Shown one piece after another: positions 5,591-55,650 of a stretch of DNA of 64,000 nucleotides (position 1 is the stretch's first letter; every line of letters starts with the position of its first letter). The notes below the pieces were generated by a model, which did not search any database, was not told where the DNA came from, and worked only from the letters and a program-made list of their open reading frames with translations. Made by a program: the position numbers and the translations under genes. Source of the stretch: Chitinophaga alhagiae (GTDB lineage: Bacteria; Bacteroidota; Bacteroidia; Chitinophagales; Chitinophagaceae); contig NZ_QXMH01000001.1 in the NCBI RefSeq assembly GCF_003568665.1, positions 2,418,001 to 2,482,000 on the forward strand, in the 5' to 3' direction.

Positions 5591-5605
5591 CTGATTACGT
5601 TATTC

Positions 5606-7189: not shown

Positions 7190-7235
7190 TTGCAACTTGT
7201 TTATGTTGTGGTCAGAAGACATCGGAGATGCATTT

Positions 7236-10200
7236 TTAGAAATTGATATTGGCCCCTATCATGAACGTTCTGGGTATCGGGAAGGAGCCGTTGTCCAGGC
7301 CTGCGGTTATCTGCTGGTCCCGAGTATCATTCACCTCCGGGTTCTGGCCGGGGTATTTGGTGAATACAAAGGCCTGCTGCACGCTGGTGTAGAGCCGGGC
7401 GGACTGTACGTACTTCAGCCGCTTCAGGTCAAAAGTATAGCCCAGGGTAATGTTTTTGATGGTGAGGTAATCTCCGTCAAACACCCAGTTGCTGTTGCCC
7501 AGGCGGTATAGTTCCGTGGTGTTGGCCAGCGTTCGGGGCACGAGGCCGTTGCCCGGGTCTTCTGGAGACCGCCAGCGGTTGGCCATGTCTTTCGTTACGT
7601 TGAAAATACCGTCTATGTTCACCAGGTTCTGCATGTTGGTGTTCATGATCTTGTTACCTGCCTGGCCGGCCACAACAATGGAGCAATCGAAATTCTTGTA
7701 GCGCAGGTCGTTGGCCATGCCAAAAATGACGCGGGGGTTGGGATTGCCCAGGTATGTTCTGTCATCCGCATTGATCACGCCATTACCGTCTATGTCTTTC
7801 ATGCGGGTAGAGCCCACTGCGGAAGAAACGTGTTTGGGCTGGCGGTTAAATTCATCCTGTGTCATGTAAATGCCGTCAAATACATATCCCCACAGCTCGC
7901 CTATGCGCCTGTCTTGCGCAGTACGGTTAAAATCGCCGTAGGTGCCGGTGCCGCCGATGAAGCCGGGCGTTTGCAGTTCCGTTACCTTGTTATCGTTGAA
8001 GGCAACGTTGAAAGAGGTATTCCATTCCAGTTCTCCCGTGAGGTTGCGGGAGTTGATCTGCAGCTCGTGGCCCCACATGCGGAAGGTGCCTACGTTGTAA
8101 GCCACGTTTGCAAAACCGGAGGCCCATGGTACGCTCCACTGATAGAGCAGGTCTTCCGTTGTTTTGCGGTAGTAGTCGTAGCTGAAGGTGATCCTGTCTT
8201 TCAGCAGGCTCAGTTCCAGGCCGAGGTCCAGTTGCCTGGAGGTTTCCCAGGTGAGATCGTTATTGGCCATCTGGATAACCGACTGGCCGGGCGCGAGCGT
8301 GGAGCCGTTAAACACGTAGTTGGTAGCGTTCAGCAGCGCGGTCTGTGTATAGTTGCCGATGTTGTTGTTGCCGGTAAGGCCGTAACTGCCCCTTATTTTC
8401 AGGTGAGAGAGCGTGCCGGATTTGGGGAAGAATGGTTCCTCACTCACTATCCAGGCCGCGGAAGCGGAGGGGAAATAACCCCACTTCCGGTTACCGCCGA
8501 AGCGGGAAGAACCATCCCGCCGGATGTTGGCGGTCACGTAGTATTTATCGGCAAAGCCGTAGTTAAGCCTGCCGTACCAGGAGAGGAGCGACCATTGGTC
8601 GTTGTTGGTGCTGCCGGTAGTGGTGGCGGCGCCAGATATCCAGGGAATGCGGTCATTCGGAAAGTTGGCGCCGTTCACTACCCGGTTGTTCTGTTCATAT
8701 TTCTGGGCGCTGTAACCCGCCAGCAGATCGAAGTTGTGACTGCCGCCCAGCTTGAACTTGTACATCAGCATGTTTTCGCTCAACCAGGAAACAGCGTTGC
8801 TGGAAATAGCGCTGGCCGTGGCCGGTTGTGGCGGAGGGGCGCCAAAGCGCCCGGTGGTGGAAGGAGAGAAGCTGTTGAGATCTGCGTCTATCAGGTCTGT
8901 ATTGAAGGTGGTCCTGAAAGTGAGGCCGGGCAATAGTTCCAGCTCACCATAGATATTTGCCAGCAGGCGGAGCGTTTTCTGCTTGTGGTTCATGATCAGC
9001 AGCTGCTGGTAGAAGTTGGGCAGCTTGTACATGCCATAGGAGCTGGCGGATGTGGGCAAGGTACCGTCAGAATTAACCGCGGGGATCAGGGGCGAACTGA
9101 TGAGCGCCCCTGAAACCGCCTGCCGGTTGTTATCAAGCGTGGTGCTCCGTGTATTATTATCTTGCTGGTAAGTGGGCGCCAGGTTCAGGCCCAGCTTCAG
9201 TTTATCATTGGGCCGGAACTCGTTGTTGCTGCGCAGGGAGAAACGCTGCATGCCGGTATTGTACATCACGCCCTGCTGGTTGAAATAGGTGAGCGTGGTG
9301 CTGGACAGTACCTTTTCAGTTCCGGTAGAGATGTTCAGGGAATAATTGGAAATGGGGGCCGTTCTCAGCAAGGCATCGTACCAGTCTGTTCCTTCACCGT
9401 ACTGCAACGGGTTGGCGTAGTCTGCCGGTATTTCCGCCAGACCGGAGGAGGGGTCTTTCCAGTTTTCATATTTGATCTTGTCTTCATAAAAACCGCGCAT
9501 GAATCCGGCAAACTCCCGGGCGTTCATCATGTCTGGCCGGCCTCTTTGCGGAACGCTTTGCCAGCCGTAGTAGGTGTTGAAAGACATGGCAGTGCGCCCG
9601 GCCCGGGCCTGTTTAGTGGTAATGATCACTACGCCGTTAGCGGCGCGGGAGCCATACAGTGCTGTGGCAGACGCGTCTTTCAATACGCTGTAACTTTCAA
9701 TTTCATCCGGGTTGATCACGTTGATGTTATCTCCGGCTATAGGTTGGCCGTCTATCACTATCAATGGCTGGTTGCCGGAGCGGAGGGAAGAAGCGCCTCT
9801 GATCCGGAAGGTCATGCCCTGGCCCGGACGGCCTGATACCTGGCTCACCTGCAAGCCGGCCACGCGGCCCTGCAGTTTCTGGCCAAATTCCGCGGCGGGA
9901 ATGTCCTGCACGTCTTTTGTGCTGACCTTTGTAACCGAACCGGTAATGCTCCGCTGGCTTTGCGCGCCGTAGCTCACCACTACTACCTGCTCCAGGTTGG
10001 CGCCTACTTCCTCCAGTACCACGGGAATATCTGTGCGCCCGTTCACCGGCTCTTCTTTTGTGCCATACCCCAGGAAACTGAATACCAGTACGGCGTTGTT
10101 GTCAGGTACGTTGATGGTGTACCGCCCGCTGACGTCTGTGGTGGTACCACGGCCGGGAACGCCTTTTACCTGCACCGTTACGCCGGGCAGTGCCTCACCG

Positions 10201-15738: not shown

Positions 15739-16512
15739 CTATCGGTCGGATCGTTTCCTGATCTCATCAATTTCCCGCTGAAAATTTATCAATGATTCAT
15801 TTTGTCCTTTACACACTTCCCGCAATTCCCTTAGCTTTTTATCCTGTTGTATTACATATAGCGTCAATTCTTCTATCTTTTGCAATAGCCGCATGTTCAT
15901 CTCGCCTATATCCAAACCGTCTTTTTCTACTTCCGCTTCGGTGGGAATATTGGGTAAATGCTGATGTTGCCGGATAAACTGCTCCACCTCGCATAAGGAG
16001 GGCAGGTGATAATCAGGCTTCAATACAAAATCTGCCCAAGTGTTTTGTGTTACTTTCACCTTACGCGCTCCAATAGTACCTTCTACGGCCAGTTTGTTGG
16101 AGCCAGGGGTTGCAGTTCCGATGCCAACATTGCCCCCATTAATGAAACTGATACCATTTGACTGGAACTGTATTTTCAGCACCTGGGAATCCTGTTTGGG
16201 CGCATCATACATCCGCAATCCAGACACCAACAGACCTGAGCTGGAGCCGCCGGGCATTAAATGCAAAATATTGTGAGCGTAAACCCCCTGGCGGGTGCCC
16301 ATTATGAGATTGTGCCCGGACCAATGAAAATAACTGTGAAGAAGCCCGTTCTTCACTTCGCCACCATCCAGGTATATCCGTCCATTTTGCACATGCAGCT
16401 TCTCAATGGGATTAGTAGTGCCGATACCTACGGTATCCGGGGTTATCTTTTGTTGCGCTATTGTGGCCAGGGGCAGTAATGACGCCAGCCACAAAATGAT
16501 ACGAGTTTTCAT
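15739..16512 (-). CDS. Exported tail-fibre-like / intramolecular-chaperone-like protein
   Basis: A 257-residue secreted protein (signal MKTRIILWLASLLPLATIAQ) of a type widespread in Bacteroidota. It carries two VGIGT..P...L.V motifs (VGIGTTNPIEKLHV near 30 and VGIGTATPGSNKLAVEG near 134) of the kind found in phage tail-fibre shafts. The C-terminal part runs CEVEQFIRQHQHLPNIPT then MNMRLLQKIEELTLYVIQQ, resembling a reduced S74-type fibre tip followed by a trimeric coiled coil. There are no phage genes around it. Its function is unknown; a surface fibre or adhesin role is inference. It is transcribed toward the GH106 gene. Confidence 0.7.
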   Translation of the reverse strand: MKTRIILWLASLLPLATIAQQKITPDTVGIGTTNPIEKLHVQNGRIYLDGGEVKNGLLHSYFHWSGHNLIMGTRQGVYAHNILHLMPGGSSSGLLVSGLRMYDAPKQDSQVLKIQFQSNGISFINGGNVGIGTATPGSNKLAVEGTIGARKVKVTQNTWADFVLKPDYHLPSLCEVEQFIRQHQHLPNIPTEAEVEKDGLDIGEMNMRLLQKIEELTLYVIQQDKKLRELREVCKGQNESLINFQREIDEIRKRSDR

Positions 16513-17243
16513 GTCAGGGACTATTTTTTATAAATTTTTCAAAAAAATGACACAACCTGCTATTGATCAGGGCAAAATATTGATCAGGAAGTTCTTGTAA
16601 ATGTTGATGGGTACAGGGTCATATAGTAAAAAATATTACGAAGGCAGATAGACCTTTATGAGAACTAAAAATACTTCTTCTTTTGAGTGGTTGTATTATT
16701 TTTCACTATATCATTTTTCCAAAATGCTATCCGCAGGTTTGACAAAATCAGTAAGAGAATTGAAATGCGTATATCTAAAACAGGAACTCCAGGTGTAGGT
16801 ACATGAGGAGCGGGGCTTGTTGACTTAAGATAAAAAAAGGGGAAATCTTTTAGTTTCCCCTGTGTGCGGGAGACGGGAGGTGGTTAGAACTTTTTGGCAG
16901 ATTCTTGTCACCCTTGACAAAGTTACAAATGAGTCTGGAAAATTGATAATCAGTGAATTGCAAGATCGAAAGCCACAGAAATTGGCGAAAGAGCCAAAAG
17001 GTAGGCAGGACCTTATTGGGAAATCTTAAAGGCACTGACCCACTTTTGGTGGTTGAGTTTTCGACAGAGATATACTGATAGTCAACGACAAAAGTGATCT
17101 TCTGAAATCAGCACAAAGGGGTCAACCTCATCGGATTTTCCAACATTCTTTAAAGAGGGCTGGTTGACGAACCGTTCTCTTCTTATTTACTATTTTCTGT
17201 ATATTTATTTCGTAAAGCACCTTGATTTAGACACCACATTAAC
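16513..17243. other. Gene-poor, AT-rich stretch at the left edge of an island
   Basis: No convincing gene is present. It holds the upstream region of the fibre-like gene, a minus-strand terminator hairpin (16831-16860) with a tRNA-3'-end-like sequence directly beside it (16863-16880), and the promoter region of the ATPase-nuclease gene. A 61-codon minus-strand frame (16850-17035) runs into the terminator loop and has no recognisable family; it is not called. Composition turns AT-rich from here to about 19.95 kb. Confidence 0.6.
16831..16860 (-). terminator. Rho-independent terminator
   Basis: GGGGAAA (16839-16845) pairs with TTTCCCC (16854-16860) around an 8-nt loop, and the minus strand continues with a run of seven T. 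No intact minus-strand gene lies upstream, so it seems to be the terminator of a lost gene, perhaps a tRNA. Confidence 0.7.
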
Positions 17244-18383
17244 ATGACCTTTGACTTTGAAAGAGAATATAATCGAAATTTTATTGGGCGTGAAAAAGAG
17301 TTAGAATGGCTTGATGAACGTCTTTATAGACGTGATTATTCTTTCTCCCCAATTATTGTTTCAGGTCCAATCGGAGTTGGCAAAACTGCTCTTGTGAAAC
17401 AGTGGTTTTCTTCAAGGAGAATTTCATACACTCCATTATGGCTAGACCTTTCTTCAAATATTGACGACAATGCCATTGATAATTTGCTTATTGAAATTCG
17501 AAGGATAAGTGATGACAGATATGAGAGGGGAGATAGAGGGTTGACCATCGTCGTTGATGGAACTGATGTTTGGCCTCAAAAAAAACATGAAGAAGTCGCC
17601 GGAAAATTTTTTAACTATAAAATCGTTTCTTCACTTGTCTTTATTAGACAAAAGGAATTAAAATTTGCAAAAGGGCAACATTTATCGCTTCGGCCTCTAT
17701 CAAATTCCTCGACAGGAGATTTATTGCGGAAACTATTGTCGAGCGAGTTGACTGATGTACAAATCTCACAAGCTATTGAGACATCGAAAGGATTTCCACT
17801 CGCCCTTTCTATTTTAAGTAAACTAATCCAAGGTAACAATATCGACTCAATACTTTCTTCAACAAAGGAACCACTCTACGATATTCAAAATGACATTCTT
17901 CTTCCCAAAAGGCAAATCATCACCGCAACAAAACCAATCATAATCAGTGCAAATCATAAGTTGATTGAATTACTGAAAAAGCAGCCTGTTAATCTACGAA
18001 ATATAACACCAAGAGAATTTGAAGAGCTATTGGCTGACTTATTAAGAGATATGGGATGGGACGTCGAATTAACTAAACAGACAAAAGATGGTGGTTCTGA
18101 TATTCTTGCTTATCTGAATACAGAAGTTGGTAGATTGTTGTGCCTCGTGGAAGCAAAGCATTATCGTGAGGACAGAAAAATCGGAGTCGAGCTAGTGAGA
18201 ACATTATATGGAACACTTTGTGACGCCCAAGCTAATAGTGCTATGTTAGTTACAAGTTCATCATTTACCGCGGATGCTAAAACGTTCCAGCAGAAACACC
18301 AATATCAATTAACATTGAAGGATTATGCTGACGTTGTAGAATGGATAATGAAATTTGGAAGTAAGAAGAATAACTTCGCCTAA
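17244..18383 (+). CDS. P-loop ATPase fused to an Mrr-type restriction endonuclease domain
   Basis: A 379-residue two-domain protein. The N-terminal half is an AAA/STAND-like ATPase: FIGREKELEWLDERL at 13-27, Walker A GPIGVGKT at 41-48, Walker B LTIVVDGTD at 100-108. The C-terminal 120 residues match the Mrr-type PD-(D/E)xK nuclease fold: TPREFEELLADLLRDMGWDVE, then GGSD with D286 and V-E303-A-K305 (the D...ExK catalytic pattern). Such fusions act in phage or plasmid defence, where the ATPase senses or gates and the nuclease cuts. It lacks the long C-terminal repeat sensor of Avs proteins. AT-rich composition and the neighbours indicate horizontal transfer. Its stop codon lies in a GCCTAAC sequence shared with the end of the third island gene. 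The domains are clear; the role is inferred. Confidence 0.8.
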   Translation: MTFDFEREYNRNFIGREKELEWLDERLYRRDYSFSPIIVSGPIGVGKTALVKQWFSSRRISYTPLWLDLSSNIDDNAIDNLLIEIRRISDDRYERGDRGLTIVVDGTDVWPQKKHEEVAGKFFNYKIVSSLVFIRQKELKFAKGQHLSLRPLSNSSTGDLLRKLLSSELTDVQISQAIETSKGFPLALSILSKLIQGNNIDSILSSTKEPLYDIQNDILLPKRQIITATKPIIISANHKLIELLKKQPVNLRNITPREFEELLADLLRDMGWDVELTKQTKDGGSDILAYLNTEVGRLLCLVEAKHYREDRKIGVELVRTLYGTLCDAQANSAMLVTSSSFTADAKTFQQKHQYQLTLKDYADVVEWIMKFGSKKNNFA

Positions 18384-18417
18384 CAAGGGATTGTCAAAAA
18401 ACGTCAGCCACAATGCA

Positions 18418-19041
18418 ATGAAACGACAACAAACAGAAGATATTATCAAGTTTTTAAAGAACAATATTCAACCTTTGGAAGACAATGCTCATGGACTTAG
18501 CTATAGAGCATCGGTGTATCTGACAGACGGAACATTTTTGCCTTGCGTCATTTTTCGCAATACAAAACCTGTTGTGAATTTAGCTATTAGACGATTTAAA
18601 GAAGAACAAACTGGGAAAGGTATTTTTAGTCGTTCTTCAGGGTTCGGATACTATGAAATTGTTAAGACTTTTGTAGCCCACGGAAATTGCATTAATGACT
18701 ATGACATTGATAGAGTTGAGAAAAGTAGATTTGCGCTTCCCTTAGACATTCAAAAACAAATTCGTGGTGAAACAACAATGGGTTGGACAGGATTTGCAAC
18801 AAAAATGAAAGACGGAAAATACTTTGGTTTCGGGACGACTTTTCATTGGGAGTTTTTTCAAATGCCGGATGGTTGTTCTGCTGATGACATTGGAGAAATA
18901 ATAAGTCATAGTTACGTTTTGAAAACAGGCGAATTAAGAAATCATAAAGTCCCATTTTTTGAACATCATACTGACGATTATAAAGATGCAGTAATTCACC
19001 GAGAAAGACCGTTTTTTGAATGTTACATAGACAATATATGA
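18418..19041 (+). CDS. Hypothetical protein of the AT-rich island
   Basis: A 207-residue protein with no recognised family. The start at 18418 (MKRQQTEDIIKFLKNN) is preferred; an in-frame ATG at 18355 would overlap the previous gene by 28 nt and add an unlikely basic segment. Visible features are an N-terminal amphipathic helix, a central beta-rich region (YRASVYLTDGTFLPCVIFRN) and an aromatic, acidic C-terminal half (TTFHWEFFQMP, FFEHHTDDYKDAV). There is no signal peptide or membrane helix, so it is cytoplasmic. It sits between two nuclease-like genes with short gaps and the same AT-rich composition, so it is probably part of the same module. Confidence 0.65.
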   Translation: MKRQQTEDIIKFLKNNIQPLEDNAHGLSYRASVYLTDGTFLPCVIFRNTKPVVNLAIRRFKEEQTGKGIFSRSSGFGYYEIVKTFVAHGNCINDYDIDRVEKSRFALPLDIQKQIRGETTMGWTGFATKMKDGKYFGFGTTFHWEFFQMPDGCSADDIGEIISHSYVLKTGELRNHKVPFFEHHTDDYKDAVIHRERPFFECYIDNI

Positions 19042-19100
19042 CAGAGGGACAGAAATACAAAATAAAAATGCACTGTGGTTAACATTATATTGACAATACT

Positions 19101-19802
19101 ATGGACCAACATTACGAATTATTGACTAGACTTTATTTGAGGCTAAAAGGTTACGTTGCTTCAAATCTTATTTTTCACTCAGACCAGTGGGGAAATTCAA
19201 GGTCGGAGCTAGATCTAGTTGCAATACGAATGCCTCATCATTCACAAGAATATCGACAGGTTAATGTTCCTGATTATTTGGACTGTTCAGAAGCTAGAAT
19301 TGAAGTACTTATAGGAGATGTCAAGAATTATGCAAAGCTGGGCGATGTAAAGTTCAACAAGGGGCTTAGAAGAGATAGGGAAAGTATAAGACAACTTATA
19401 GATTGGCTTGGAATCTATGAAACTATAACCAACGAACAACTTGATAAGTTTGAAAGCAATTTGAACTTGCATAAAAACAAAGAATTAAATGGCTTTGCTG
19501 AATTCAACGAGGACTTACCTCTTGGGAAATTCAAATTTAAGTTTACGTTTTTCTGTCCTTCTTTGCCAGAATGGAGTGGAAAAGGATTCAAGTATATTCA
19601 TGGTAAAGAAATGATCGACTTTGCGTGGGAATGTTTGAACGAAACATCAAGAATAAAAACCTGTTCCAGGAGATATGGCTTTGACGGTTGGAATGAACTC
19701 GAATCTTATGTAAGATTCTTTAAAGACAAAACAGACAAGGTAACAATCGAAGATTTTGAAGAATACTGCAAGAACCCTTTACGTAAAGGTCCTTCCGCCT
19801 AA
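19101..19802 (+). CDS. Putative PD-(D/E)xK-fold nuclease-like protein
   Basis: A 233-residue cytoplasmic protein. The N-terminal third has the order expected of a restriction-endonuclease-like core: helix YELLTRLYLRLKGYVASN, then SELDLVAIR with D38, then a strand EVLIGDVKN with D73-V-K75, giving D...DxK. This is the Holliday-junction-resolvase/DUF-type nuclease pattern, read by eye. The remaining 130 residues are basic and aromatic and unrecognised. It is 59 nt downstream of the hypothetical gene, AT-rich, and ends with its stop codon inside CGCCTAACA. A DNA-cleaving role in a defence module with the ATPase-nuclease gene is plausible but inferred. Confidence 0.55.
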   Translation: MDQHYELLTRLYLRLKGYVASNLIFHSDQWGNSRSELDLVAIRMPHHSQEYRQVNVPDYLDCSEARIEVLIGDVKNYAKLGDVKFNKGLRRDRESIRQLIDWLGIYETITNEQLDKFESNLNLHKNKELNGFAEFNEDLPLGKFKFKFTFFCPSLPEWSGKGFKYIHGKEMIDFAWECLNETSRIKTCSRRYGFDGWNELESYVRFFKDKTDKVTIEDFEEYCKNPLRKGPSA

Positions 19803-19950
19803 CATAAGTTGGCAATGGTAACTATAATAATCGATTTCATAATGTAGGGAAAACTAACCAAAATATACCCGTAGTTCAAACATAGCCTCATGGGATTCGA
19901 GCTCTCCTTCAAACTTGATTTCCAATTAATTAAAAAAGGTCAAAAACACA

Positions 19951-19981
19951 AAGGAGCTATTTCTCTAAGAAATAACTCCTT
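19951..19981 (-). terminator. Terminator of tRNA-Leu
   Basis: On the minus strand AAGGAGTTATTTC and GAAATAGCTCCTT form a long hairpin just past the tRNA 3' end, followed by the T-rich TGTGTTTTTG. Confidence 0.8.
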
Positions 19982-19994
19982 CATTTTGATACTG

Positions 19995-20076
19995 TGCGGA
20001 TGAAGGGACTCGAACCCCCATGCCTCGCGGCACCAGATCCTAAGTCTGGCGTGTCTACCAATTTCACCACATCCGC
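19995..20076 (-). tRNA. tRNA-Leu (anticodon UAG)
   Basis: An 82-nt type II tRNA. The acceptor GCGGATG pairs with CATCCGC, the discriminator is A, the D-arm contains AAATTGGTAGACA, the anticodon loop is CTTAGGA (anticodon TAG), a variable arm TGCCGCGAGGCA is present, and the T-arm has GGTTCGAGTCC. CCA is not encoded. It borders the AT-rich island, whose genes lie on its 3' side, the usual geometry for tRNA-targeted integration. Confidence 0.97.
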
Positions 20077-20166
20077 AATAGCCTTTGAAAAAGGTCTGCA
20101 AAGGTATCTTTTTTTGCCAATTTTAAAAATATTTATAACATAACGTAAGCAGCCGGCGGCGGCGTT

Positions 20167-47098: not shown

Positions 47099-48583
47099 AT
47101 GAATAAAAAGAAACGCTTTGCCGCTATTGCACTTGTAGCTGCAATTGTTGCCGGCGGCTTCGCCCTGAGCGGTAAATCCGGCAACCTATATCATACTATT
47201 ACAGGAGAGGAAAACGCCCCGCTGGTACGCACGGCTTACACCGGCCCGGTAAACAACCAGCCGGTGAGCTTTGAAGATGCGGCTTCCGCGGCCGTGCCCT
47301 CCGTTGTACATATCCGTACGGTAGTGAAGTACAAACAGGCGCGCCAGCAAAACCCCTTTGAGGGAATGGACGATGATATTTTCCGCCGCTTCTTTGGAGA
47401 CGGCGGCGCGCGCCAGTTCCGCCAGCCGCCTGAGCAACGGGCTTCCGGCTCCGGGGTTATCATCAGCGGGGATGGCTACATTGTGACCAATAACCACGTG
47501 GTGAACGGCGCTACAGAAGTAAACGTAACGCTCAGTAACGGTAAAAACTACAAAGCGGAGGTTGTTGGTACAGACCCTAATACGGACCTGGCGCTGATCA
47601 AGGTAGACGGTAAAAACCTGCCCGTGATGCCGGTGGGCAATTCTGACGATGTGAAGCTGGGCCAGTGGGTACTGGCCATAGGCTACCCGCTGAACCTGGA
47701 TGTAACGGTAACGCAGGGCATCATCAGCGCCAAATCCCGCAACATTGGCATTAACCGCCAGGCCGCCGCTCCCGTGGAATCTTTCCTGCAAACGGACGCC
47801 GCGGTGAACCCCGGCAGCAGCGGCGGCGCGCTGGTTACCACCAACGGGGAACTGATAGGCATCAACGCGGCCATTGCTTCTCCTACGGGTTCCTACGCGG
47901 GCTATGCATATGCCATCCCGTCTAACCTGATGAAAAAGGTGGTGAACGATATCAAACAGTTCGGCAGCGTTCAGCGCGGTTACCTGGGCATCAGCATGCC
48001 GCCCGAGAACCTGGACGAGGCGCAGAAAAAAGAGCTGGGCATCAAGTATGACGGCAACGGCGTGTACGTGGCCGGTATAGATCCCAGCGGCGCGGCTTCC
48101 GCGGCGGGCATACGCCAGGGTGACGTGATCACAAAAATAAACGGCGCCACCGTCAATTCCGGTGCGCAGCTTTCAGAGCAGATAGCCCGCCAGAAACCGG
48201 GAGACAAGCTGAAGCTCACCTACCTGAGAAACGGTGCCGAGCAAGATGTGGATGTAACCCTGAAAGGTAAAATGGGTGAAATTGCCGGCGGCCCTGCGGC
48301 TACCATACAGCAACTGGGGGCGGACTTTGCCACCCTTCCAGCAGCAGACGCCCGTAAAATGGGCATTGCCGGCGGTGTACAGGTAACGGCCATTAACGAG
48401 GGTGTGCTGGCAGACCAGACCAATATGAAAGAAGGATTTGTGATCACCCGCGTGGGCGGCATGGCCGTACGCACGGTAGATGAGCTGCGGGCCGCCATGC
48501 AGCGCCTGAGGGGCAACTTCCAGATAGAAGGCCTCTACCCGGGCAGCAGCAAGGTGTATTACTACGGTATTAACGACTATTAA
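47099..48583 (+). CDS. htrA: DegP/HtrA-type periplasmic serine protease
   Basis: A 494-residue envelope protease and chaperone (Do family). The N-terminus is a signal anchor (FAAIALVAAIVAGGFAL). The catalytic triad is visible: H133 in VTNNHVV, D163 in PNTDLALIKVD, S241 in NPGSSGGAL. Two PDZ domains follow (about 280-385 and 395-490). It removes misfolded periplasmic proteins. It lies 235 nt after a two-component system, with repeats in the gap that suggest control by it. A strong terminator follows. Confidence 0.96.
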   Translation: MNKKKRFAAIALVAAIVAGGFALSGKSGNLYHTITGEENAPLVRTAYTGPVNNQPVSFEDAASAAVPSVVHIRTVVKYKQARQQNPFEGMDDDIFRRFFGDGGARQFRQPPEQRASGSGVIISGDGYIVTNNHVVNGATEVNVTLSNGKNYKAEVVGTDPNTDLALIKVDGKNLPVMPVGNSDDVKLGQWVLAIGYPLNLDVTVTQGIISAKSRNIGINRQAAAPVESFLQTDAAVNPGSSGGALVTTNGELIGINAAIASPTGSYAGYAYAIPSNLMKKVVNDIKQFGSVQRGYLGISMPPENLDEAQKKELGIKYDGNGVYVAGIDPSGAASAAGIRQGDVITKINGATVNSGAQLSEQIARQKPGDKLKLTYLRNGAEQDVDVTLKGKMGEIAGGPAATIQQLGADFATLPAADARKMGIAGGVQVTAINEGVLADQTNMKEGFVITRVGGMAVRTVDELRAAMQRLRGNFQIEGLYPGSSKVYYYGINDY

Positions 48584-48625
48584 TAAAGATTTGAGTAACC
48601 AGGGGGTTAATTTTTAAGTGCGGAC

Positions 48626-48659
48626 AGGCTTCTTCATTTTTTATGAAGAAGCCTTTTTT
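48626..48659 (+). terminator. htrA terminator overlapping a convergent stop codon
   Basis: AGGCTTCTTCAT and ATGAAGAAGCCT form a 12-bp perfect stem with a T5 loop, followed by TTTTT. Its T-run contains the stop codon of the convergent receiver gene. Confidence 0.92.
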
Positions 48660-49074
48660 ATTGCTCCCTGAAAATACCTTCGATCACTTCCTTCAGCTCC
48701 TTGGGCTGCAACGGTTTTTTCAACAGCCGGATTACCAGCGGGTTGGCGTTGGTGCGGGAAATATCCCCGAAGTCGAGCGAAGAAGATACCATAATAATGT
48801 AGCACTGGTTCTTGATCTTTTTAGGGTAAGAATCAAAAGACCGCAGGAACTCGAAGCCGTCCATTTCAGGCATCTGTATATCCAGCAAGATGACCGTAGG
48901 GGGAATATGGGGGAGGGTGATGTTGCTGGACAGGAATTCGAGCGCTTTGTTGGCATTGCTGAATGACAAAATGGTTCTGCTGATCTGCTGAATGGAAATC
49001 AACCGTTCATGCAGCAGCAGATCGATATCGTTATCGTCGATCAGTATGACGCGCAGATCAGGTATCGAATTCAT
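48658..49074 (-). CDS. Single-domain response regulator, last gene of the E1/acyltransferase operon
   Basis: A stand-alone receiver of 138 residues from the preferred start MNSIPDLRVILIDDNDID; this start overlaps the upstream kinase gene by 17 nt, indicating translational coupling. Phosphoacceptor Asp in VILLDIQMPEMDGFEF, Ser switch in IIMVSSSLD, Lys in RLLKKPLQPKEL. No output domain, so it acts through protein contact or phosphotransfer. It is the terminal component of the local phosphorelay. Confidence 0.92.
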   Translation of the reverse strand: MNSIPDLRVILIDDNDIDLLLHERLISIQQISRTILSFSNANKALEFLSSNITLPHIPPTVILLDIQMPEMDGFEFLRSFDSYPKKIKNQCYIIMVSSSLDFGDISRTNANPLVIRLLKKPLQPKELKEVIEGIFREQ

Positions 49075-50155
49075 TTCTGTTGGGAATAGAGATTTCAAAT
49101 TGGGTGCCTTCCCCGTAGCGGGAGTCCACCCCAATGGTACCGCCAATTTTATTCAGGGCCTCTTTCACAATATACAACCCGATGCCGCTGCCGGGCTTGT
49201 TGTTGTTCTTGGAGCGGAAGAACATTTTAAAAATGTTGCTCAGGTGCTCGCTCAGTATGCCAATGCCGTTGTCTTCTATCCGGATGGTAGCCTTGTGCGG
49301 CTCCACTTTTACGGACAGGTTCACCTGCGGACTGGTTTCATCCGGCTTCTGGTATTTAACGGCGTTGGATATCAGATTGTTCAGGATCACGCTGATACGG
49401 AAAAAGTCGCCCTTGAACGGTACGGGCTGGTCAATTTTAGTATTGAAATGAATGGTGGTGTTCTGGTGCTTGAAAGTATCGATACAATCACTGATCAGCG
49501 CGGAAAAATCGATCTTTTCATATTCCAGTTCCAGCCGCGAGTTGCGGTAATATTCAATGATCTTCTGGATGAAGCTGTCCAGCCGGGTAATGCACACCTC
49601 TATCATGCCCATGTACCCCTGCGGGTCTGTCATGCTGTTGTCCAGCCGGCTGAGGTTGATGATGCCCTGTACGCTCATGAGCGGGGCGCGCAGGTCGTGA
49701 GAGGTGGAGTAGATGAAGCGGTTCAGCTCATCGTTCGTTTTTTCCAGCTCCAGCACTTTTTCCTTGAGCTGCTTGCGGGCGGAGTAGATCTCGTAGGCGT
49801 TATTGATGGTCTTGAACAGCTCGTGCTCGTCCCAGGGTTTTTTGATGTAGGAAAAGATATGTCCCTTGTTGATGGCGTCTATAATGTCTTCCACATCTGT
49901 ATAGCCGGTCAGCAGAATGCGGATGGGGTCAGGTAACAGGTCCTTGATCTCGTTGAAGAACTCTACGCCGGTGGTGGCAGGCATTTTCTGGTCCGCAATA
50001 ATGATATGCACTTCAATCCCCTTAAGCACCTGCATCCCTTCCGCGGCAGAACTGGCGGTATAGATCTCGTAACTCCGCCTGAAATTAGCGCGGAACGCAT
50101 TGAGGTTATGTACTTCGTCATCGATGTACAAAATTCTGATACGGTTATTTTTCAT
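49058..50155 (-). CDS. Receiver-histidine kinase hybrid (response regulator at N-terminus)
   Basis: A 365-residue soluble protein. The N-terminal receiver has RIRILYIDDEVHNL and phosphoacceptor Asp in IIIADQKMPATTGVEFF, with Lys in YIKKPWDEHEL. A coiled coil (QLKEKVLELEKTNDELNRFI) joins it to the kinase: H-box STSHDLRAPL, N-box ILNNLISNAVKY, G-boxes IRIEDNGIGI and GSGIGLYIVKEAL. This RR-HK order means the kinase is controlled by phosphorylation of its own receiver, probably by the 7TM kinase encoded 15 nt upstream. The lone receiver follows with overlap. Confidence 0.95.
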   Translation of the reverse strand: MKNNRIRILYIDDEVHNLNAFRANFRRSYEIYTASSAAEGMQVLKGIEVHIIIADQKMPATTGVEFFNEIKDLLPDPIRILLTGYTDVEDIIDAINKGHIFSYIKKPWDEHELFKTINNAYEIYSARKQLKEKVLELEKTNDELNRFIYSTSHDLRAPLMSVQGIINLSRLDNSMTDPQGYMGMIEVCITRLDSFIQKIIEYYRNSRLELEYEKIDFSALISDCIDTFKHQNTTIHFNTKIDQPVPFKGDFFRISVILNNLISNAVKYQKPDETSPQVNLSVKVEPHKATIRIEDNGIGILSEHLSNIFKMFFRSKNNNKPGSGIGLYIVKEALNKIGGTIGVDSRYGEGTQFEISIPNRNEFDT

Positions 50156-50170
50156 GAAGGGTCTTGTTAA

Positions 50171-52354
50171 TTAGGACATATGACTCTGAACACTGGGCAC
50201 TATTGGCACATGAAGTGGTAAATATATAATAAATTCCGCTCCTTTACCCGGCTCCGACTCAACGAGTATTCTGCCGTGGTGTTTCTCAATAATGCTGAAA
50301 ACAATAGAAAGCCCCAGCCCGGTGCCCTCACCTACGTCTTTGGTCGTAAAAAACGGTTCAAATATCTTTTCTTTTACCTTGTCCGTCATGCCCGTTCCGC
50401 TGTCTTTGATGCCGATGCTCACCTGTTTTTCCGCTTCATGGTAACGGGTGGTGATGGTGAGCTTTTCGTCCCCCTGTTCCGGTTTCATCTTGATGGCGTT
50501 CAGGGCGTTGTTGATGATGTTGAGGAACACCTGGTTCAGCTTGCCGGCAAAACACTCTATTTTGGGCAGTTCTCCGTAGTTATATACTACTTCCACGTTT
50601 TTGGGGATGTTATTGCGGAGCAGCACCATGGTGGAGTTCAGCCCTTCATGAATGTCAACGAACTTGAGGTCGCTCTCGTCCAGCCGGCTGAAGGTACGCA
50701 GGCCCTTTACAATTTCAGCGGTCCGGTTGGCGCCGTCTTCTATGCCTTTGATAAGGGTTTCTATTTCGCTATGCACATAATCAATATCTATCTGCTGCTT
50801 GAACTGCTCAATGTCTGCCAGTTTCTGCTGGATGTTGTCTGCCGGCCCGATGGCTTCATATTGCCGGAGCAGGCTTTTGAGGTCTTCGAAATCCAGTTTC
50901 AGCGGTTTGATATTGGATGTTACAAAGTTAATGGGATTATTGATCTCGTGCGCAATACCGGCCGTAAGCTGGCCGAGGGAGGCCATTTTTTCCGCTTCCA
51001 CCAGTTGCGTTTGGGCATTTTTCAGGTTGTTGAGGGCCTTGTTCAGTTCTACGTTGCTGTTTTGCAGGGCTTCCGTTCTTTCCGCCACCTTGGCTTCCAA
51101 TATCACGTTCTGCTCGCGCACCAGTTGCTCGTTTTCCTGTGATATGTGCAGGGCCAGGGCCTGTGATTCTTCTTTTTCCTTCCGGTAGATGTTGATCTTG
51201 TTGGCCAGGGCAAAAGACAGCAGGGTTACTTCGGCCGCGGAGCCTATCTGCAGGGCGTAATAGGTAAAGTCGTTATACGGCAGTATGTTGAAGTTGCGCA
51301 ATACAAAAACACATACGCTGGAAAGGAAGATACCCCAGGCCACCAGGAAGTACCGGGCCGGTATGAAGCCGCGGCGCGCTACCTTGTAACCCACAAAAAT
51401 GGCCAGCAACGAGGCGGCCATGGCCGTCATCTGCGCCATCATATTGGCCACAAAGTATTTGTCCAGGAAAGTGGGGATGAACACCAGGGAATACGCTATC
51501 ACCACGCCGGTAAGGATATGATGGCCGGTCCTGTACTTTTCCCGCGTATGCAGGAAAGACTGGATGAACAGGGCGGCCGTAATACCGTTGAGGATGGGGA
51601 TAATGAGCGTATCGTGCGTGGCCAGCCATATGTTGTTGGGCCAGAGGAAACGGAAAGTATAACCCTGCTGTGAGGCCTGGGTGAGGCCCACGCAGATGAT
51701 GTAGCTCACGTAAATGAGGTAGCTCCTGTCACGGATGCTGAGATAAATGAAAAGGTTGTACAGGGCCATTACGAGAATAATGCCGATGTACACGCCGAAA
51801 ATGAAGTTGCGTTCGGTGTTTTTCACGTTGAGCGACGTTTCGCCGCCCAGGTACATGGGCAGCTGCGCCTGTTCCCCGGCCTTTACCTTGAGGTAAAATT
51901 CCCTTGTTTCGCCACGTGCCAGGGTGAGCGGGAAAATATAGTTCTGGTGGTCATAAGGGCGGTAGCGGTAAGGCTGGAGCTGCCCCAGCTCCACCACCCG
52001 GTACCCGCCGGAAGGCAGTATCTCGTAGAGGGTGATCTCGTCTATGGTGGGGTATTCCACCTCCAGCAGCAGCCGGTTCAGGCCGGTCTCGTTGGTAATG
52101 GCAAAGCGGGCCCAGTTGCTGAAAGGGGATATCTGGAGGTTGGGTACGTCTGTTTTGGAAGAGGTGAAGGCCTGCCTGCGCACATCGTCTATTGTTAACC
52201 GGTTGGTATTGTCCCGGTACAGCTCCAGGTAACGGCCTACCTGCATGAGCTGCGTGCTGTCTTTAAATATCACACGCGGCGTTGCTGCAAAGGCGGCGCT
52301 TTGCCAGTGCAGGGCGAGGATGATCAAGGCAAAAAAGCGTATCAGCATCTGCAT
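50171..52354 (-). CDS. 7TMR-DISM sensor histidine kinase
   Basis: A 727-residue membrane kinase. After a signal sequence (ALHWQSAAFA) comes a periplasmic 7TMR-DISMED2-type beta domain (about 30-180), a fold that often binds carbohydrates or other small ligands. Seven membrane helices (about 185-395) follow, starting NFIFGVYIGIILVMALYNLF. A coiled coil leads to the kinase: H-box AHEINNPINFV, N-box VFLNIINNALNAI, G-boxes IKDSGTGM and GTGLGLSIVFSI. It should sense an extracellular ligand and feed the downstream receiver-kinase. It starts 51 nt after the acyltransferase-like gene. Confidence 0.94.
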   Translation of the reverse strand: MQMLIRFFALIILALHWQSAAFAATPRVIFKDSTQLMQVGRYLELYRDNTNRLTIDDVRRQAFTSSKTDVPNLQISPFSNWARFAITNETGLNRLLLEVEYPTIDEITLYEILPSGGYRVVELGQLQPYRYRPYDHQNYIFPLTLARGETREFYLKVKAGEQAQLPMYLGGETSLNVKNTERNFIFGVYIGIILVMALYNLFIYLSIRDRSYLIYVSYIICVGLTQASQQGYTFRFLWPNNIWLATHDTLIIPILNGITAALFIQSFLHTREKYRTGHHILTGVVIAYSLVFIPTFLDKYFVANMMAQMTAMAASLLAIFVGYKVARRGFIPARYFLVAWGIFLSSVCVFVLRNFNILPYNDFTYYALQIGSAAEVTLLSFALANKINIYRKEKEESQALALHISQENEQLVREQNVILEAKVAERTEALQNSNVELNKALNNLKNAQTQLVEAEKMASLGQLTAGIAHEINNPINFVTSNIKPLKLDFEDLKSLLRQYEAIGPADNIQQKLADIEQFKQQIDIDYVHSEIETLIKGIEDGANRTAEIVKGLRTFSRLDESDLKFVDIHEGLNSTMVLLRNNIPKNVEVVYNYGELPKIECFAGKLNQVFLNIINNALNAIKMKPEQGDEKLTITTRYHEAEKQVSIGIKDSGTGMTDKVKEKIFEPFFTTKDVGEGTGLGLSIVFSIIEKHHGRILVESEPGKGAEFIIYLPLHVPIVPSVQSHMS

Positions 52355-52405
52355 AAAAAAATTGCAATGTCAATTTACTGATGTTATGGCAGTAAACATA
52401 ACAGT

Positions 52406-53122
52406 TTATGGCACCATTTGGGGCAGCCCCAACTGGTAGCTTACTTCAAAGCTGCCTTTGGGGCCTGTTTCCGTGCGTATCTGGTTAGGTTGGGCCCTGA
52501 GGTTGAAGATCAGGTCTTTCTCCACCTGCTCTGCGCTGGACACTTCATGTATATCCCTGATAATCATTGCCGTAGCCACCAGGTCATCTTTCGGGTAGTA
52601 AAAAACGCCTTCGTTGCCCAGGGAGGTGTCTATGACCGCGCCCACTCTTTTGGCGCCGCGGGTGGTAATGGGCGCGCAAAGTACGTGTACGTTCTGAACG
52701 GGGAGCTGCGTCATCAGCGCCACGCATACGCGGCTCAGAATGAGACTGCCAATGCCCATGCCGGCTACTTCCTTGGAGTTCCACAAACCGCAGATCTCGG
52801 CGCTGCCCGGCATGTCTCCCTGGCGGGCCACCACATCTGTATAAATTTTCGGATCGTATTTGCCAATGGCCATCTCGATGGGCAGCGGCAGCACGCCATC
52901 TGCTATCTGCACGCGGGCGCCGCCATAGGTTTTGGTGCCCGTATCGTCTTCCACAATGACCACTACGGTATTTTTATGAGATATCCAGTCCTGGTTCCCG
53001 GACGTGATCTTGTTGATCCCGAAATAGATCTGCAGCAGCTTGCTGTGGCCTTCATAAAACCGCATGCATGCTTCCGGGTCATCCGGTGCAAAAAAAGCCC
53101 TTACATTGATCGGTGCGCTCAT
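52406..53122 (-). CDS. GNAT-fold acyltransferase-like protein
   Basis: A 238-residue cytoplasmic protein with a probable GNAT-type fold. YGGARVQIADGVLPLPIEMAI recalls the strand pair that opens the acyl-CoA/ACP site in autoinducer-synthase-like and N-acyl-amino-acid-synthase GNATs, and GLWNSKEVAGMGIGSLILSRVCVAL corresponds to the acyl donor-binding loop and helix (R/Q..G.G...L). The C-terminal 60 residues are unassigned. No signal peptide. It lies 27 nt downstream of an E1-like enzyme, which suggests the two act on one product. The fold call is by pattern only; substrate unknown. Confidence 0.55.
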   Translation of the reverse strand: MSAPINVRAFFAPDDPEACMRFYEGHSKLLQIYFGINKITSGNQDWISHKNTVVVIVEDDTGTKTYGGARVQIADGVLPLPIEMAIGKYDPKIYTDVVARQGDMPGSAEICGLWNSKEVAGMGIGSLILSRVCVALMTQLPVQNVHVLCAPITTRGAKRVGAVIDTSLGNEGVFYYPKDDLVATAMIIRDIHEVSSAEQVEKDLIFNLRAQPNQIRTETGPKGSFEVSYQLGLPQMVP

Positions 53123-53149
53123 TGATTGCTCTTTTAGTTTATAGGGGCA

Positions 53150-54253
53150 TTATTGAATAAGTTCATCAAAATCCACATAATACCTGCCTGACGCCTGTAG
53201 CTGGCCAAGCAGTATACGCCTGCAGGTATCCGCCACCATGGCGCCTCCCAGCATTACGGAAGATGCCAGCTGGGGCCAGGTAGTGATCGTTTTCCCGATC
53301 TCCCCCAAAGAATATTTCATGCGGGGGCTCATATTTGCCATACCTGCCATGGGGCCCAGGATGGGTATTTTTTCTTCATTGGTAAGGTGTTTGAGCGATC
53401 TCAGGTCTGCAATATCGGGTATCAGGCCGTGCAGCAGCGGGTAGGAGGGGTCCAGGTCATACCGTTCAATGTCCAGCATCCCCCTGTCATTGGTGTCCAT
53501 CACCACCGGTACCTGCATGGCTTTCGCTTTTTTGCGGCTCAGTATTTTCACGTCAATGCCGTCACACTCTTCCACCAGCACGTCCAGCTTGCCGCCGCCG
53601 GTCATAAACTCGTCCAGGTTCCCTTCCGTAGCGCCATCTGTAAAACATTTCACGGTGAGGAAGGGGTCCAGCTCGGCAATTTCCCGCGCGGCAATGATCA
53701 CTTTGGGCATGCCCAGGTTAAAAACGCCTGTCCGGAGCCGGTTCATGTTACTCAGTTCCACCGTGTCAAAGTCTGCCAGCCGCAGCTCTCCGCCAATGCG
53801 CTCCATGGCCAGCGTGAGCGCTATGCTCTGCCCCACGGAAAGGCCAATGATGCCTATTTTTTTTTGCTGCAGCAGGTCACGCTCTTCCCGGGTGATCTTG
53901 TGCAGGTTGCGGGAGGTACGTATGGCAATGAACTCTTCGCGGCCTGGTAAATGCACCAGTTTTTCCGCCCAGGGATAATACACCCACACCCCGTAGTCTT
54001 CTGGCGGGGTGCCGTTCAAGTGGCGCTCAATGGCCACCGTCAGTTCTTCCGGCGTCAATGCGCGGGCGGGGTTCAGGCTTTTTATCAGCTCTCTGAGCTG
54101 GCTGTACAGCTCGTCATAAACCCTGATCCGCGGATTGTTCCGCAGTAATTGCAGCAAGGCGGCCTTTTCGTCTCCATCTCCCGGATGGTAGAACACTGGC
54201 ATATGGGTCAGGTGCTCATGCCTTGTCTGCAGTACTCGTTCCTGAATAATCAT
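53150..54253 (-). CDS. E1-like (ThiF/MoeB-family) adenylating enzyme
   Basis: A 367-residue protein with an unusual 130-residue N-terminal extension before a ThiF-type Rossmann domain. The nucleotide loop is IGIIGLSVGQSIAL (G137-x-S-x-G141) and LRLADFDTVELSNMNRLRTG contains the conserved D-x-D...N-x-x-R of ATP-dependent carboxylate adenylation (D161-R172). LVEECDGIDVK matches the later D-containing motif. The CxxC zinc pairs of MoeB/ThiF are not seen, and no ubiquitin-like (ThiS/MoaD) gene is nearby. It resembles the N-terminal half of the mycobacterial Rv1355c type but lacks the nitroreductase half. Probably first in a five-gene operon; it may activate a peptide or small acid. Confidence 0.8.
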   Translation of the reverse strand: MIIQERVLQTRHEHLTHMPVFYHPGDGDEKAALLQLLRNNPRIRVYDELYSQLRELIKSLNPARALTPEELTVAIERHLNGTPPEDYGVWVYYPWAEKLVHLPGREEFIAIRTSRNLHKITREERDLLQQKKIGIIGLSVGQSIALTLAMERIGGELRLADFDTVELSNMNRLRTGVFNLGMPKVIIAAREIAELDPFLTVKCFTDGATEGNLDEFMTGGGKLDVLVEECDGIDVKILSRKKAKAMQVPVVMDTNDRGMLDIERYDLDPSYPLLHGLIPDIADLRSLKHLTNEEKIPILGPMAGMANMSPRMKYSLGEIGKTITTWPQLASSVMLGGAMVADTCRRILLGQLQASGRYYVDFDELIQ

Positions 54254-54927
54254 GCTGCTTCCAGACTGGTTTTTTACGGGTGAATGGATGTTGCCTTTTT
54301 CTAATGATGCCCGGTTACTGATCGTTAGGTTATTTTAAAGGGCCAAAGTACAAGCGCCTCACCAAAACTACGTTCACTGAAAGGGGGATTTTTCCCGCCT
54401 TCTTTCTCCAGATCATACATTAATAAGTATAAAAAGTGTTATAATAATTCTCTCATGGGCTGTATCCGGGCATAAACGGAAAAAATCTGAACCTCACCAA
54501 CCTCCGGGGCGAACTGTTCATCCGTGTCTACGGCATTTATTGTAAATGAGCTAAGATCAAACCAAAACTTCACCTCTCTGGCAAAGCGCGCATAACAGCT
54601 ATTGTTAAACAATTGTGGGGGATGGACGATATCCGGCAATCACCGGCGAAGACAGTATAGGGCTGCACCGGCCTTTGCAGGGCCGGGGCTGGGCAATTCC
54701 TCTTGCCTGGGATAAATAGCTTCATTTTTTAGAGAATGATTAGATATACGACAACAACACATGAATATAAAAGTAAAATAGCAATTTATTTCAAATTAAA
54801 CTATAACAAGCTGCTTTATTTTGCAGTTTTTGCAAAAATAGCGATTATATCAGGATTGAGATTGGTGTAATATTTGCAAGTAATTAGCCGCTATCTTTTA
54901 GATTTGTAGGAACTAATCATACCCATC
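54254..54927. other. Intergenic region between divergent E1-like and SOD genes
   Basis: No gene is supported. A 66-codon minus-strand frame (54439-54639) has no recognised family. A GC-rich hairpin CCGGCC/GGCCGG sits at 54668-54686 without a T-run. The right end holds the SOD promoter. The upstream control region of the E1-like operon must be here but no clear promoter was found. Confidence 0.55.
54873..54906 (+). promoter_or_regulatory. Superoxide dismutase promoter
   Basis: TTTG (54873-54876) and TAGATTTG (54899-54906) with a 22-nt spacer. The leader would be only about 16 nt. Confidence 0.55.
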
Positions 54928-55650
54928 ATGCATAAAAGAGAATTCCTCAAGGTGGCCGGTCTTGCCGGATTGGCTGCTATGGCCGATCCGAAAGGATTGT
55001 TTGCCGCAGAGGGGCGCGAAACCCTGTTAACGCAAAAAGCACCGTTCACGCTGCCTCCTTTACCTTACGCTCCGGATGCGCTGGAGCCCAATATAGACAA
55101 GCTGACCATGGAGATCCATCATGACAAGCACCATGGCGCCTACGTAAAGAACCTCAATGACGCACTGCAAAGCTCCGCACTGGCCAGCCTTTCGCTGGAA
55201 GGCATACTGGCCAAAGTAACCGCTAAAGACGCGGCCATCCGCAACAACGGCGGCGGCCATTACAACCACAGCCTGTTCTGGACGCTGCTCAGTCCTAAAC
55301 AGACCAGCCCCTCGGCCAAGCTCACCACCGCCCTCAATGGCGCGTTCGGCTCGGTAGACGCATTCAAGGAACAATTTGGGGATGCCGCCAAGAAAGTGTT
55401 CGGCTCCGGCTGGGCCTGGCTGATCGTGAAGAAAGACGGGAAGCTGGCCATTACCTCCACGCCCAACCAGGACAATCCCCTGATGACGCAGCTGGTAAAA
55501 GAGCCGGGTACGCCCCTGTTGGGACTGGACGTGTGGGAGCATGCCTATTATCTGAAACATCAGAACAAGCGGCCTGATTATATTGCTGCGTTCTGGAACG
55601 TGGTGAATTGGGACGAGGTGGAGAAACGCCTCAATGCGGCCAGGAAATAG
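54928..55650 (+). CDS. sodA: Exported Mn-type superoxide dismutase
   Basis: Superoxide dismutase of the Fe/Mn family (240 residues). The N-terminus [18 protein letters not shown] looks like a twin-arginine-type signal with KR in place of RR, so export is likely, unlike most sodA products. Metal ligands are in [18 protein letters not shown], and [24 protein letters not shown] (Gly in place of the Fe-type Gln) and the NQDNPLM glutamine favour manganese. It is monocistronic, with its own promoter and a bidirectional terminator. Confidence 0.93.

Follow-up and report, generated by a model that had tools for sequence, protein, structure and literature searches.

A Chitinophaga alhagiae operon coupling a GNAT-fold acyltransferase and a ThiF-type cyclase to a 7TM-DISM sensor kinase, a candidate signal synthase-sensor set

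What could bring a ThiF-type adenylating enzyme, a GNAT-like protein and several two-component proteins together in one bacterial operon? The question is raised by five genes located at 48658-54253, on the minus strand of a 64,000-nt stretch of the Chitinophaga alhagiae genome (6.1 Mb), which lies on a 2.66-Mb contig and is called the window below. A first-pass annotation of this DNA had proposed that the enzymes build a small molecule, that the kinases sense it, and that the genes form a self-contained module. Our results support this core proposal, the sensing of the product by the kinase being the part that we infer, and they narrow the chemistry, by analogy with the TrzAS and TyzACB systems, to a putative N-acyl amino acid that would then become an azlactone. 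On balance, we consider it probable that this is a signal synthase-sensor operon, in which the GNAT would make the N-acyl amino acid, the ThiF enzyme would convert it to the azlactone, and the seven-transmembrane (7TM) kinase would sense the product.

Linkage of the enzymes to a 7TM-DISM sensor kinase

The conservation of the block was followed in four sets: an order set (149 genomes), a named-genome set (the 80 loci nearest by ThiF), a phylum set (395 genomes) and a family set (294 genomes). In the order set, the GNAT gene was found in 13 genomes and the ThiF gene in 11; among 13 loci besides the window, a DISM kinase gene came next in nine (eight in one run, and L031 after 320 nt), two stopped at contig edges (L037, with a kinase fragment, and L039), and the kinase was absent from L040 and L041. 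The named-genome loci were picked for closeness in ThiF and so do not sample relatives at random; one of them duplicates an order locus, leaving 79. The kinase was present in the same run in 72 of these and further on in L073 and L119 (where the GNAT frame is split or unrecognised); L061, L065 and L110 stop at contig edges, and the kinase is absent from Dyadobacter flavalbus (L113) and Brevibacillus thermoruber (L115). The block also occurs in a genome of Chitinophaga pinensis (L043). In the phylum set, ThiF occurred in 11 of the 395 genomes and GNAT in 13, all 11 ThiF genomes being among those 13 (Fisher p 1e-19; 2e-18 once the window's genome and the three seed genomes are excluded), and the kinase came next in all nine new loci.

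The family set, with the GNAT in 89 of its genomes, gave the largest sample of loci. The kinase gene was found on the same strand and at most 4.5 kb from the GNAT in 86 of them, and L212, L276 and L285 stop at a contig edge. As the GNAT profile had been built from loci picked by ThiF, not by the kinase, this count was not built in. The enzymes lie beside the 7TM kinase far beyond chance, and the joint conservation that the first-pass annotation had proposed to check is found across the Bacteroidota sets for ThiF, GNAT and kinase. The separation of enzymes from kinases that would have spoken against its proposal did not appear, the kinase being lacking, outside the family set, only from L040, L041, L113 and L115.

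The acyltransferase and the cyclase

What would such enzymes make? The candidate N-acyl amino acid synthase (52406..53122, 238 aa) belongs to a conserved family, its homologues from 36 named-genome loci aligning with the window protein. It matched no Pfam or NCBIfam family, and therefore its fold was tested by structure prediction. FeeM (2g0b) was the best solved match of the AlphaFold2 model (mean pLDDT 92.1), ranking first by both Foldseek (E 6.0e-07) and VIA-align (Z 16.5, rmsd 3.0, 179 aligned residues), but with only 9-17% identity in the structural alignments. The N-acyl homoserine lactone (AHL) synthases MesI, BjaI, RpaI, LasI and TofI also ranked high, with FeeM above LasI, so that the GNAT fold, claimed beforehand from the letters and to be compared with LuxI and FeeM, was recovered as a FeeM/LuxI fold. 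Ranks 2-3 in VIA-align are occupied by small GNATs less than one Z unit below FeeM, and therefore the substrate is not fixed by the fold alone. Two tandem GNAT genes stand between the ThiF-desaturase and 7TM kinase genes in one family locus (L240, genome G600).

The ThiF-type adenylating cyclase (53150..54253, 367 aa; PF00899, E 2e-16) corresponds to the N-terminal half of the Rv1355c/TrzS family. Its residues 10-366 match positions 4-339 of the 722 of the NCBIfam profile NF005901 (E 2.3e-141) with 472.5 bits, against a full-length family cut-off of 476 bits that is passed (476.6) if one stop is read through. The adenylation residues are common to six actinobacterial homologues, and the closest named relatives of the gene are from Chitinophaga (74% identity). 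Rv1355c is TrzS, for which an ATP-dependent closure of N-acyl tryptophan to an oxazolone, followed by desaturation, is described in excerpts of PMC12856293.

This match also bears on the idea that the ThiF and GNAT proteins modify a protein or peptide, as E1-like or peptide-tailoring systems do, which we regard as very improbable. ThiF-fold enzymes include E1 proteins, and PaaA (E 0.00015) and candidate E1-E2 defence models were weakly matched, but the Rv1355c-family match is far stronger, the GNAT best matches FeeM, and a carrier gene would not fit into the operon, where no gap exceeds 51 nt.

The nitroreductase-type desaturase of the family is neither fused nor adjacent to the window's ThiF, which stops at 367 aa and is flanked by other genes. 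Searching the genome with NF005901 gave a strong match to the N-terminal half only, plus two weak ThiF-type matches, and the desaturase half of a relative retrieved nothing from it in a search run without a positive control; the genome holds two ordinary nitroreductases (open frames of 213-222 aa). A desaturase profile built from relatives recognised seven of the nine actinobacterial loci. We recognised oxazolone synthetases by a Rv1355c-family ThiF cyclase domain with adenylation residues, an adjoining gene for a FeeM/LuxI-fold N-acyltransferase, and a desaturase; the window operon has the first two and, because it lacks the desaturase, is a ThiF-only variant that stands outside the oxazolone synthetases proper. 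A tree combining 97 ThiF domains of the loci examined with five from actinobacteria implies no fewer than eight gains or losses of the desaturase, three of these changes being forced by well-supported branches. The desaturase is absent in all 32 rows of the window's supported clade.

Natural fusions of ThiF, desaturase and GNAT (L116) and of an acetyltransferase and ThiF (L128, a Streptomyces plasmid) join the proposed acylation and cyclisation steps, in agreement with the chemistry favoured here. The L128 fusion (5164-8078, 622 aa) is weakly FeeM-like, below the cut-off, and is followed by a ketoacyl-ACP synthase III gene; it is possibly an oxazolone maker without a desaturase. On another Streptomyces plasmid (L129), a GNAT gene follows that of a 388-aa ThiF. 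The B. thermoruber 423 stretch (L115, labelled Bacillota), with neither a GNAT nor a DISM kinase, carries a ThiF relative 55% identical to that of the window beside a YebC/TACO1-type gene, and could reflect either transfer or mislabelling.

The sensor kinase and its divergence with the synthase

If the enzymes make a signal, is there a receptor to read it? The third gene (50171..52354, 727 aa) encodes a 7TMR-DISM sensor histidine kinase with a DISMED2 ectodomain (PF07696, 112 bits), a DISM 7TM domain (PF07695, 183 bits) and a kinase (HATPase_c, 85 bits; HisKA, 27.0 bits against a cut-off of 26.9), all over their cut-offs. Its modelled sensor half has a mean pLDDT of 93.6, and the ectodomain matches that of RetS (3jyb; Z 16.2, rmsd 2.3, 135 aligned residues in the VIA search), the Pseudomonas aeruginosa protein with which it has the DISMED2 fold in common. 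We know of no synthase partner for RetS. To our knowledge, few ligands of 7TM-DISM kinases have been reported, glucose-6-phosphate, for SagS, being an example. Kinship of the 7TM part with G-protein-coupled receptors or rhodopsins is not claimed, the Z scores of 12-15 being a level that helical bundles reach by their common arrangement. The best paralogue of the sensor in its own genome shows 26% identity, and a tree with such paralogues as outgroup says nothing on ancestry, as both lie apart on very long branches.

Two further signalling genes follow: a receiver-histidine kinase hybrid (REC-HisKA-HATPase; 49058..50155, 365 aa), with PF00072 and PF02518 over cut-off and PF00512 at 26.4 against 26.9 bits, and a stand-alone receiver (48658..49074, 138 aa), with PF00072 over cut-off. 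The identities first given to the ThiF, 7TM DISM kinase, hybrid and lone receiver proteins agree with the Pfam domains present in each, and the minus-strand layout corresponds to the list of open reading frames, with gaps of 27, 51 and 15 nt and, if the receiver starts at the ATG at 49074, a hybrid/receiver overlap of 17 nt. Judged by motif, the histidines that accept phosphate and the aspartates of the receivers are present, the sensor histidine presumably being that of GIAHEINNP and the lone receiver aspartate that of LLDIQMP. To call this a complete phosphorelay, as had been done, was an overstatement: the operon encodes two histidine kinases along with two receivers, yet neither an Hpt domain nor any output domain, DNA-binding or otherwise, appeared in a Pfam scan limited to its five proteins. 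Another stand-alone receiver, REC2, is present within or adjoining the block, mostly in divergent orientation, at 52 of the 79 loci of the named-genome set. The window's genome has a REC2 homologue with 68% identity about 176 kb from the operon (L175, G000 C1 2648675-2649121).

Do the synthase and the sensor go together? Identities were compared over 18 locus pairs sharing no member, the medians being 85 for the hybrid, 81 for the kinase half, 70.5 for the GNAT, 66 for the 7TM domain and 38.5 for the ectodomain. With kinase and hybrid identity removed, GNAT identity tracks that of both the 7TM domain (partial correlation 0.63, p 0.0022) and the ectodomain (0.66, p 0.0016), whereas the kinase half, given hybrid identity, shows no tracking of the GNAT in the same 18 pairs (0.22, p 0.19). 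At the sequence level, the synthase and the sensor half diverge together and the kinase half does not follow.

This pattern speaks against another account, in which the acylated product serves as a membrane lipid or as a stress metabolite, the 7TM kinase monitors the state of the envelope or membrane, and the two share an operon through common regulation and not because the kinase senses the product. We rate this account as unlikely. In its favour, C12:0-tyrazolone was found in cell pellets only (in the part of PMC10404671 available), tyz genes are linked to oxidative stress in excerpts of PMC10404671 and PMC12856293, and a Fe/Mn superoxide dismutase gene (54928-55650; PF00081, PF02777) lies divergently upstream of the operon, with homologues in 21 of the 93 related loci searched (L042-L060, L062 and L078, mostly labelled Chitinophaga). 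Against it stands, besides the divergence of the sensor half with the synthase, that the five proteins contain no DNA-binding domain to couple the kinase to transcription of the operon.

The first-pass annotation had taken ThiF and GNAT as the enzyme pair. Its GNAT is indeed constant, but in company with the 7TM kinase, and ThiF is one of several exchangeable tailoring enzymes. Beside the GNAT in the 89 family loci there is a ThiF-desaturase in 38 (34 plus three desaturase fragments and L240, with its two GNATs), ThiF alone in 18, an ICMT-type membrane methyltransferase in 10, a class I S-adenosylmethionine (SAM) methyltransferase in eight and a FAD_binding_4 oxidase in three; nine loci have none and three are unassessable. 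In the soluble-methyltransferase loci, a short receiver replaces the hybrid kinase in six, one has the hybrid and one is cut. The constant pair is GNAT and 7TM kinase, and the tailoring step varies across the family. Either reaction, ring closure by ThiF or putative carboxyl methylation, would leave an N-acyl amino acid with its carboxylate capped.

Does the sensor follow the tailoring enzyme as well? Trees of five parts were compared over 73 of the 89 loci, the others being left out because a gene was short, cut or missing or because the class was unassessable (including seven of the eight soluble-methyltransferase loci). The tailoring class fits the 7TM tree best, with 11 changes; the GNAT tree needs 15, and the ectodomain, kinase-half and hybrid trees need 17 each (in quick trees the ectodomain had 15 and the kinase half 18, against 17 and 17 in the careful ones), and bootstraps keep the 7TM domain lowest. 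When the loci with no tailoring gene were dropped and the two ThiF classes merged, a grouping picked after the data had been seen and counted on 300 of 1000 bootstrap trees, the 7TM domain needed three changes (the least possible), the ectodomain four, the GNAT five, and the kinase half and hybrid about eight. Of 300 bootstrap trees of the 7TM domain, 296 unite the three FAD-oxidase loci in a single clade, which appears in none of the 300 for each other part. One of these loci, L278, has a GNAT and a hybrid resembling those of loci without the oxidase, and a sensor half nearest to the other two FAD-oxidase loci. Similarly, L031 (ThiF-desaturase) and L257 (no tailoring gene), from the same genus, have hybrids 93% identical and 7TM domains only 38% identical.

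A putative signal class and its surroundings

How might the parts work together? From its fold, the GNAT would N-acylate an amino acid with a fatty acyl group. Following the precedent of TrzS, TyzB and OxzB, ThiF would then adenylate the carboxylate of this N-acyl amino acid, which would close to a 5(4H)-oxazolone (azlactone), an uncharged and AHL-like product; as there is no desaturase half, the azlactone of the window would be saturated. Linkage and co-divergence suggest that the 7TM-DISM kinase would detect this product through its sensor half and autophosphorylate, and from the domains present the phosphate would pass to the receivers of the hybrid kinase and of the lone receiver protein. 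Because none of the five proteins has a DNA-binding domain, the output of the stand-alone receiver would be by protein contact.

Since the synthase-sensor pair is constant and the tailoring varies, species probably use different versions of one type of signal. The wider proposal, which we advance tentatively and with a little under even confidence, is of a new Bacteroidota signal class: N-acyl amino acids with exchangeable carboxylate caps, read by co-diversifying 7TM-DISM kinases as species dialects. With the same reserve, the caps could be a ThiF-made azlactone with or without desaturation, the work of an ICMT-type or soluble methyltransferase or of a FAD oxidase, or absent altogether.

Several observations weigh against these proposals. 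Joint exchange of neighbouring genes could mimic the co-divergence of the sensor with the GNAT. When the sensor was tested against tailoring class in pairs, no significant difference emerged (p 0.44), only two of the 18 pairs differing in class, and therefore the tree counts are suggestive only. Several pairs with the same tailoring have 7TM domains less than 50% identical (for instance L234 and L266, with GNATs at 80% and 7TM domains at 35%), and L219, a ThiF-desaturase locus, breaks a strict rule by having its 7TM domain nearest to those of FAD-oxidase loci (54%). Nine family loci lack a tailoring gene; an unlinked ICMT of the operon type was predicted for them, and this prediction failed in a search of 37 genomes, with 166-469 bits in the ten operonic cases, at most 86 or nothing in those nine, and at most 92 in the other 18. 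The window's GNAT family matches the actinobacterial acyltransferases only weakly in sequence (four of nine loci, E 9e-5 to 5e-4), so homology to the TrzA candidates was not used as proof. At nine actinobacterial ThiF loci there is no kinase of this kind, so it is dispensable to related enzymes. Furthermore, a saturated azlactone should be labile in water. Tryptazolones are more abundant inside cells than in the medium, according to the portion of PMC12856293 at hand.

Production of an antibiotic by the operon, an N-acyl amino acid derivative that the kinase would sense for autoinduction or self-protection, seems improbable. The neighbourhood lists hold no constant transporter or immunity gene, which argues weakly against it, as the flanking genes are mostly unannotated; in its favour, N-acyl tyrosine derivatives of Stieleria are reported as antimicrobial in excerpts of PMC12856293, and related gene sets have been proposed for them in those of PMC12479983.

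For a signal made and read within one operon, known systems offer partial parallels. TrzAS of mycobacteria and Rhodococcus (Rv1356c-Rv1355c; excerpts of PMC12856293) combines an acyltransferase with a ThiF cyclase of the same NCBIfam model, the window operon differing by the lack of the fused desaturase. TyzACB of Mycobacterium tuberculosis and OxzAB of Pseudoalteromonas rubra carry out N-acylation and ThiF cyclisation as proposed here, and a TyzA model resembles FeeM and BjaI; in contrast to the window, a desaturase is present in these systems, and the available portion of their description mentions no sensor kinase (PMC10404671). Likewise, the excerpts of PMC12479983 report that, in Pseudomonadota and Planctomycetota, genes for N-acyl amino acid synthases are accompanied by those for ThiF and nitroreductase proteins, and describe no sensor kinases. 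Nine stretches from 13 plasmid records with a ThiF relative were examined, and none of these actinobacterial stretches had a DISM or hybrid-kinase match; three Rhodococcus ones adjoin a GGDEF gene. Within the sets examined (Bacteroidota genomes and these nine stretches), the kinase link is seen only in Bacteroidota. In LuxI-type AHL systems, whose LasI, BjaI and RpaI are among the top folds for the GNAT, an acylated signal is likewise made beside its sensor, as would be the case here; the receptor would differ from those of LuxI-type or two-component quorum sensing in being a 7TM-DISM kinase, and any use of SAM by the synthase is putative.

The accessible part of PMC12856293 regards what N-acyl oxazolones do physiologically as a major unresolved question and notes their likeness to cell-cell signals; oxazolones are altered by acid and by methanol, according to the same paper. 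Here, a gene for a kindred synthesis is tied across Bacteroidota to a membrane sensor kinase, and if the proposal is true, oxazolones, which are without an established role, would gain their first receptor. The operon therefore offers candidates for both a receptor and a signal class, and a synthase matched to its sensor would also be of use for the ligands of 7TM-DISM kinases. A search of titles and opening lines of abstracts in mostly open-access literature found no report of a GNAT or ThiF paired with a 7TM kinase, and the set would probably be an unreported way of signalling for Chitinophaga-like soil bacteria.

As for the surroundings, a stem-loop followed by a T run lies at 48626-48654 on the plus strand, downstream of a convergent open reading frame (47099-48583) that we take to encode a Do/HtrA protease. 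An Rfam scan of 48000-55500 gave nothing reaching the gathering score, and promoter-like (8 against 7.1 by chance) and terminator-like (12 against 8.5) sites were near chance numbers. A defence system was also considered for the operon and rejected, the matches to candidate E1-E2 and PDC models being weak only. Elsewhere in the window, a low-GC stretch at 16000-20080 (0.38 against about 0.53) adjoins a tRNA-Leu gene and contains, at 17244-18383, a Mrr-type nuclease domain fused to an AAA ATPase domain; it is probably a genomic island with a defence gene.

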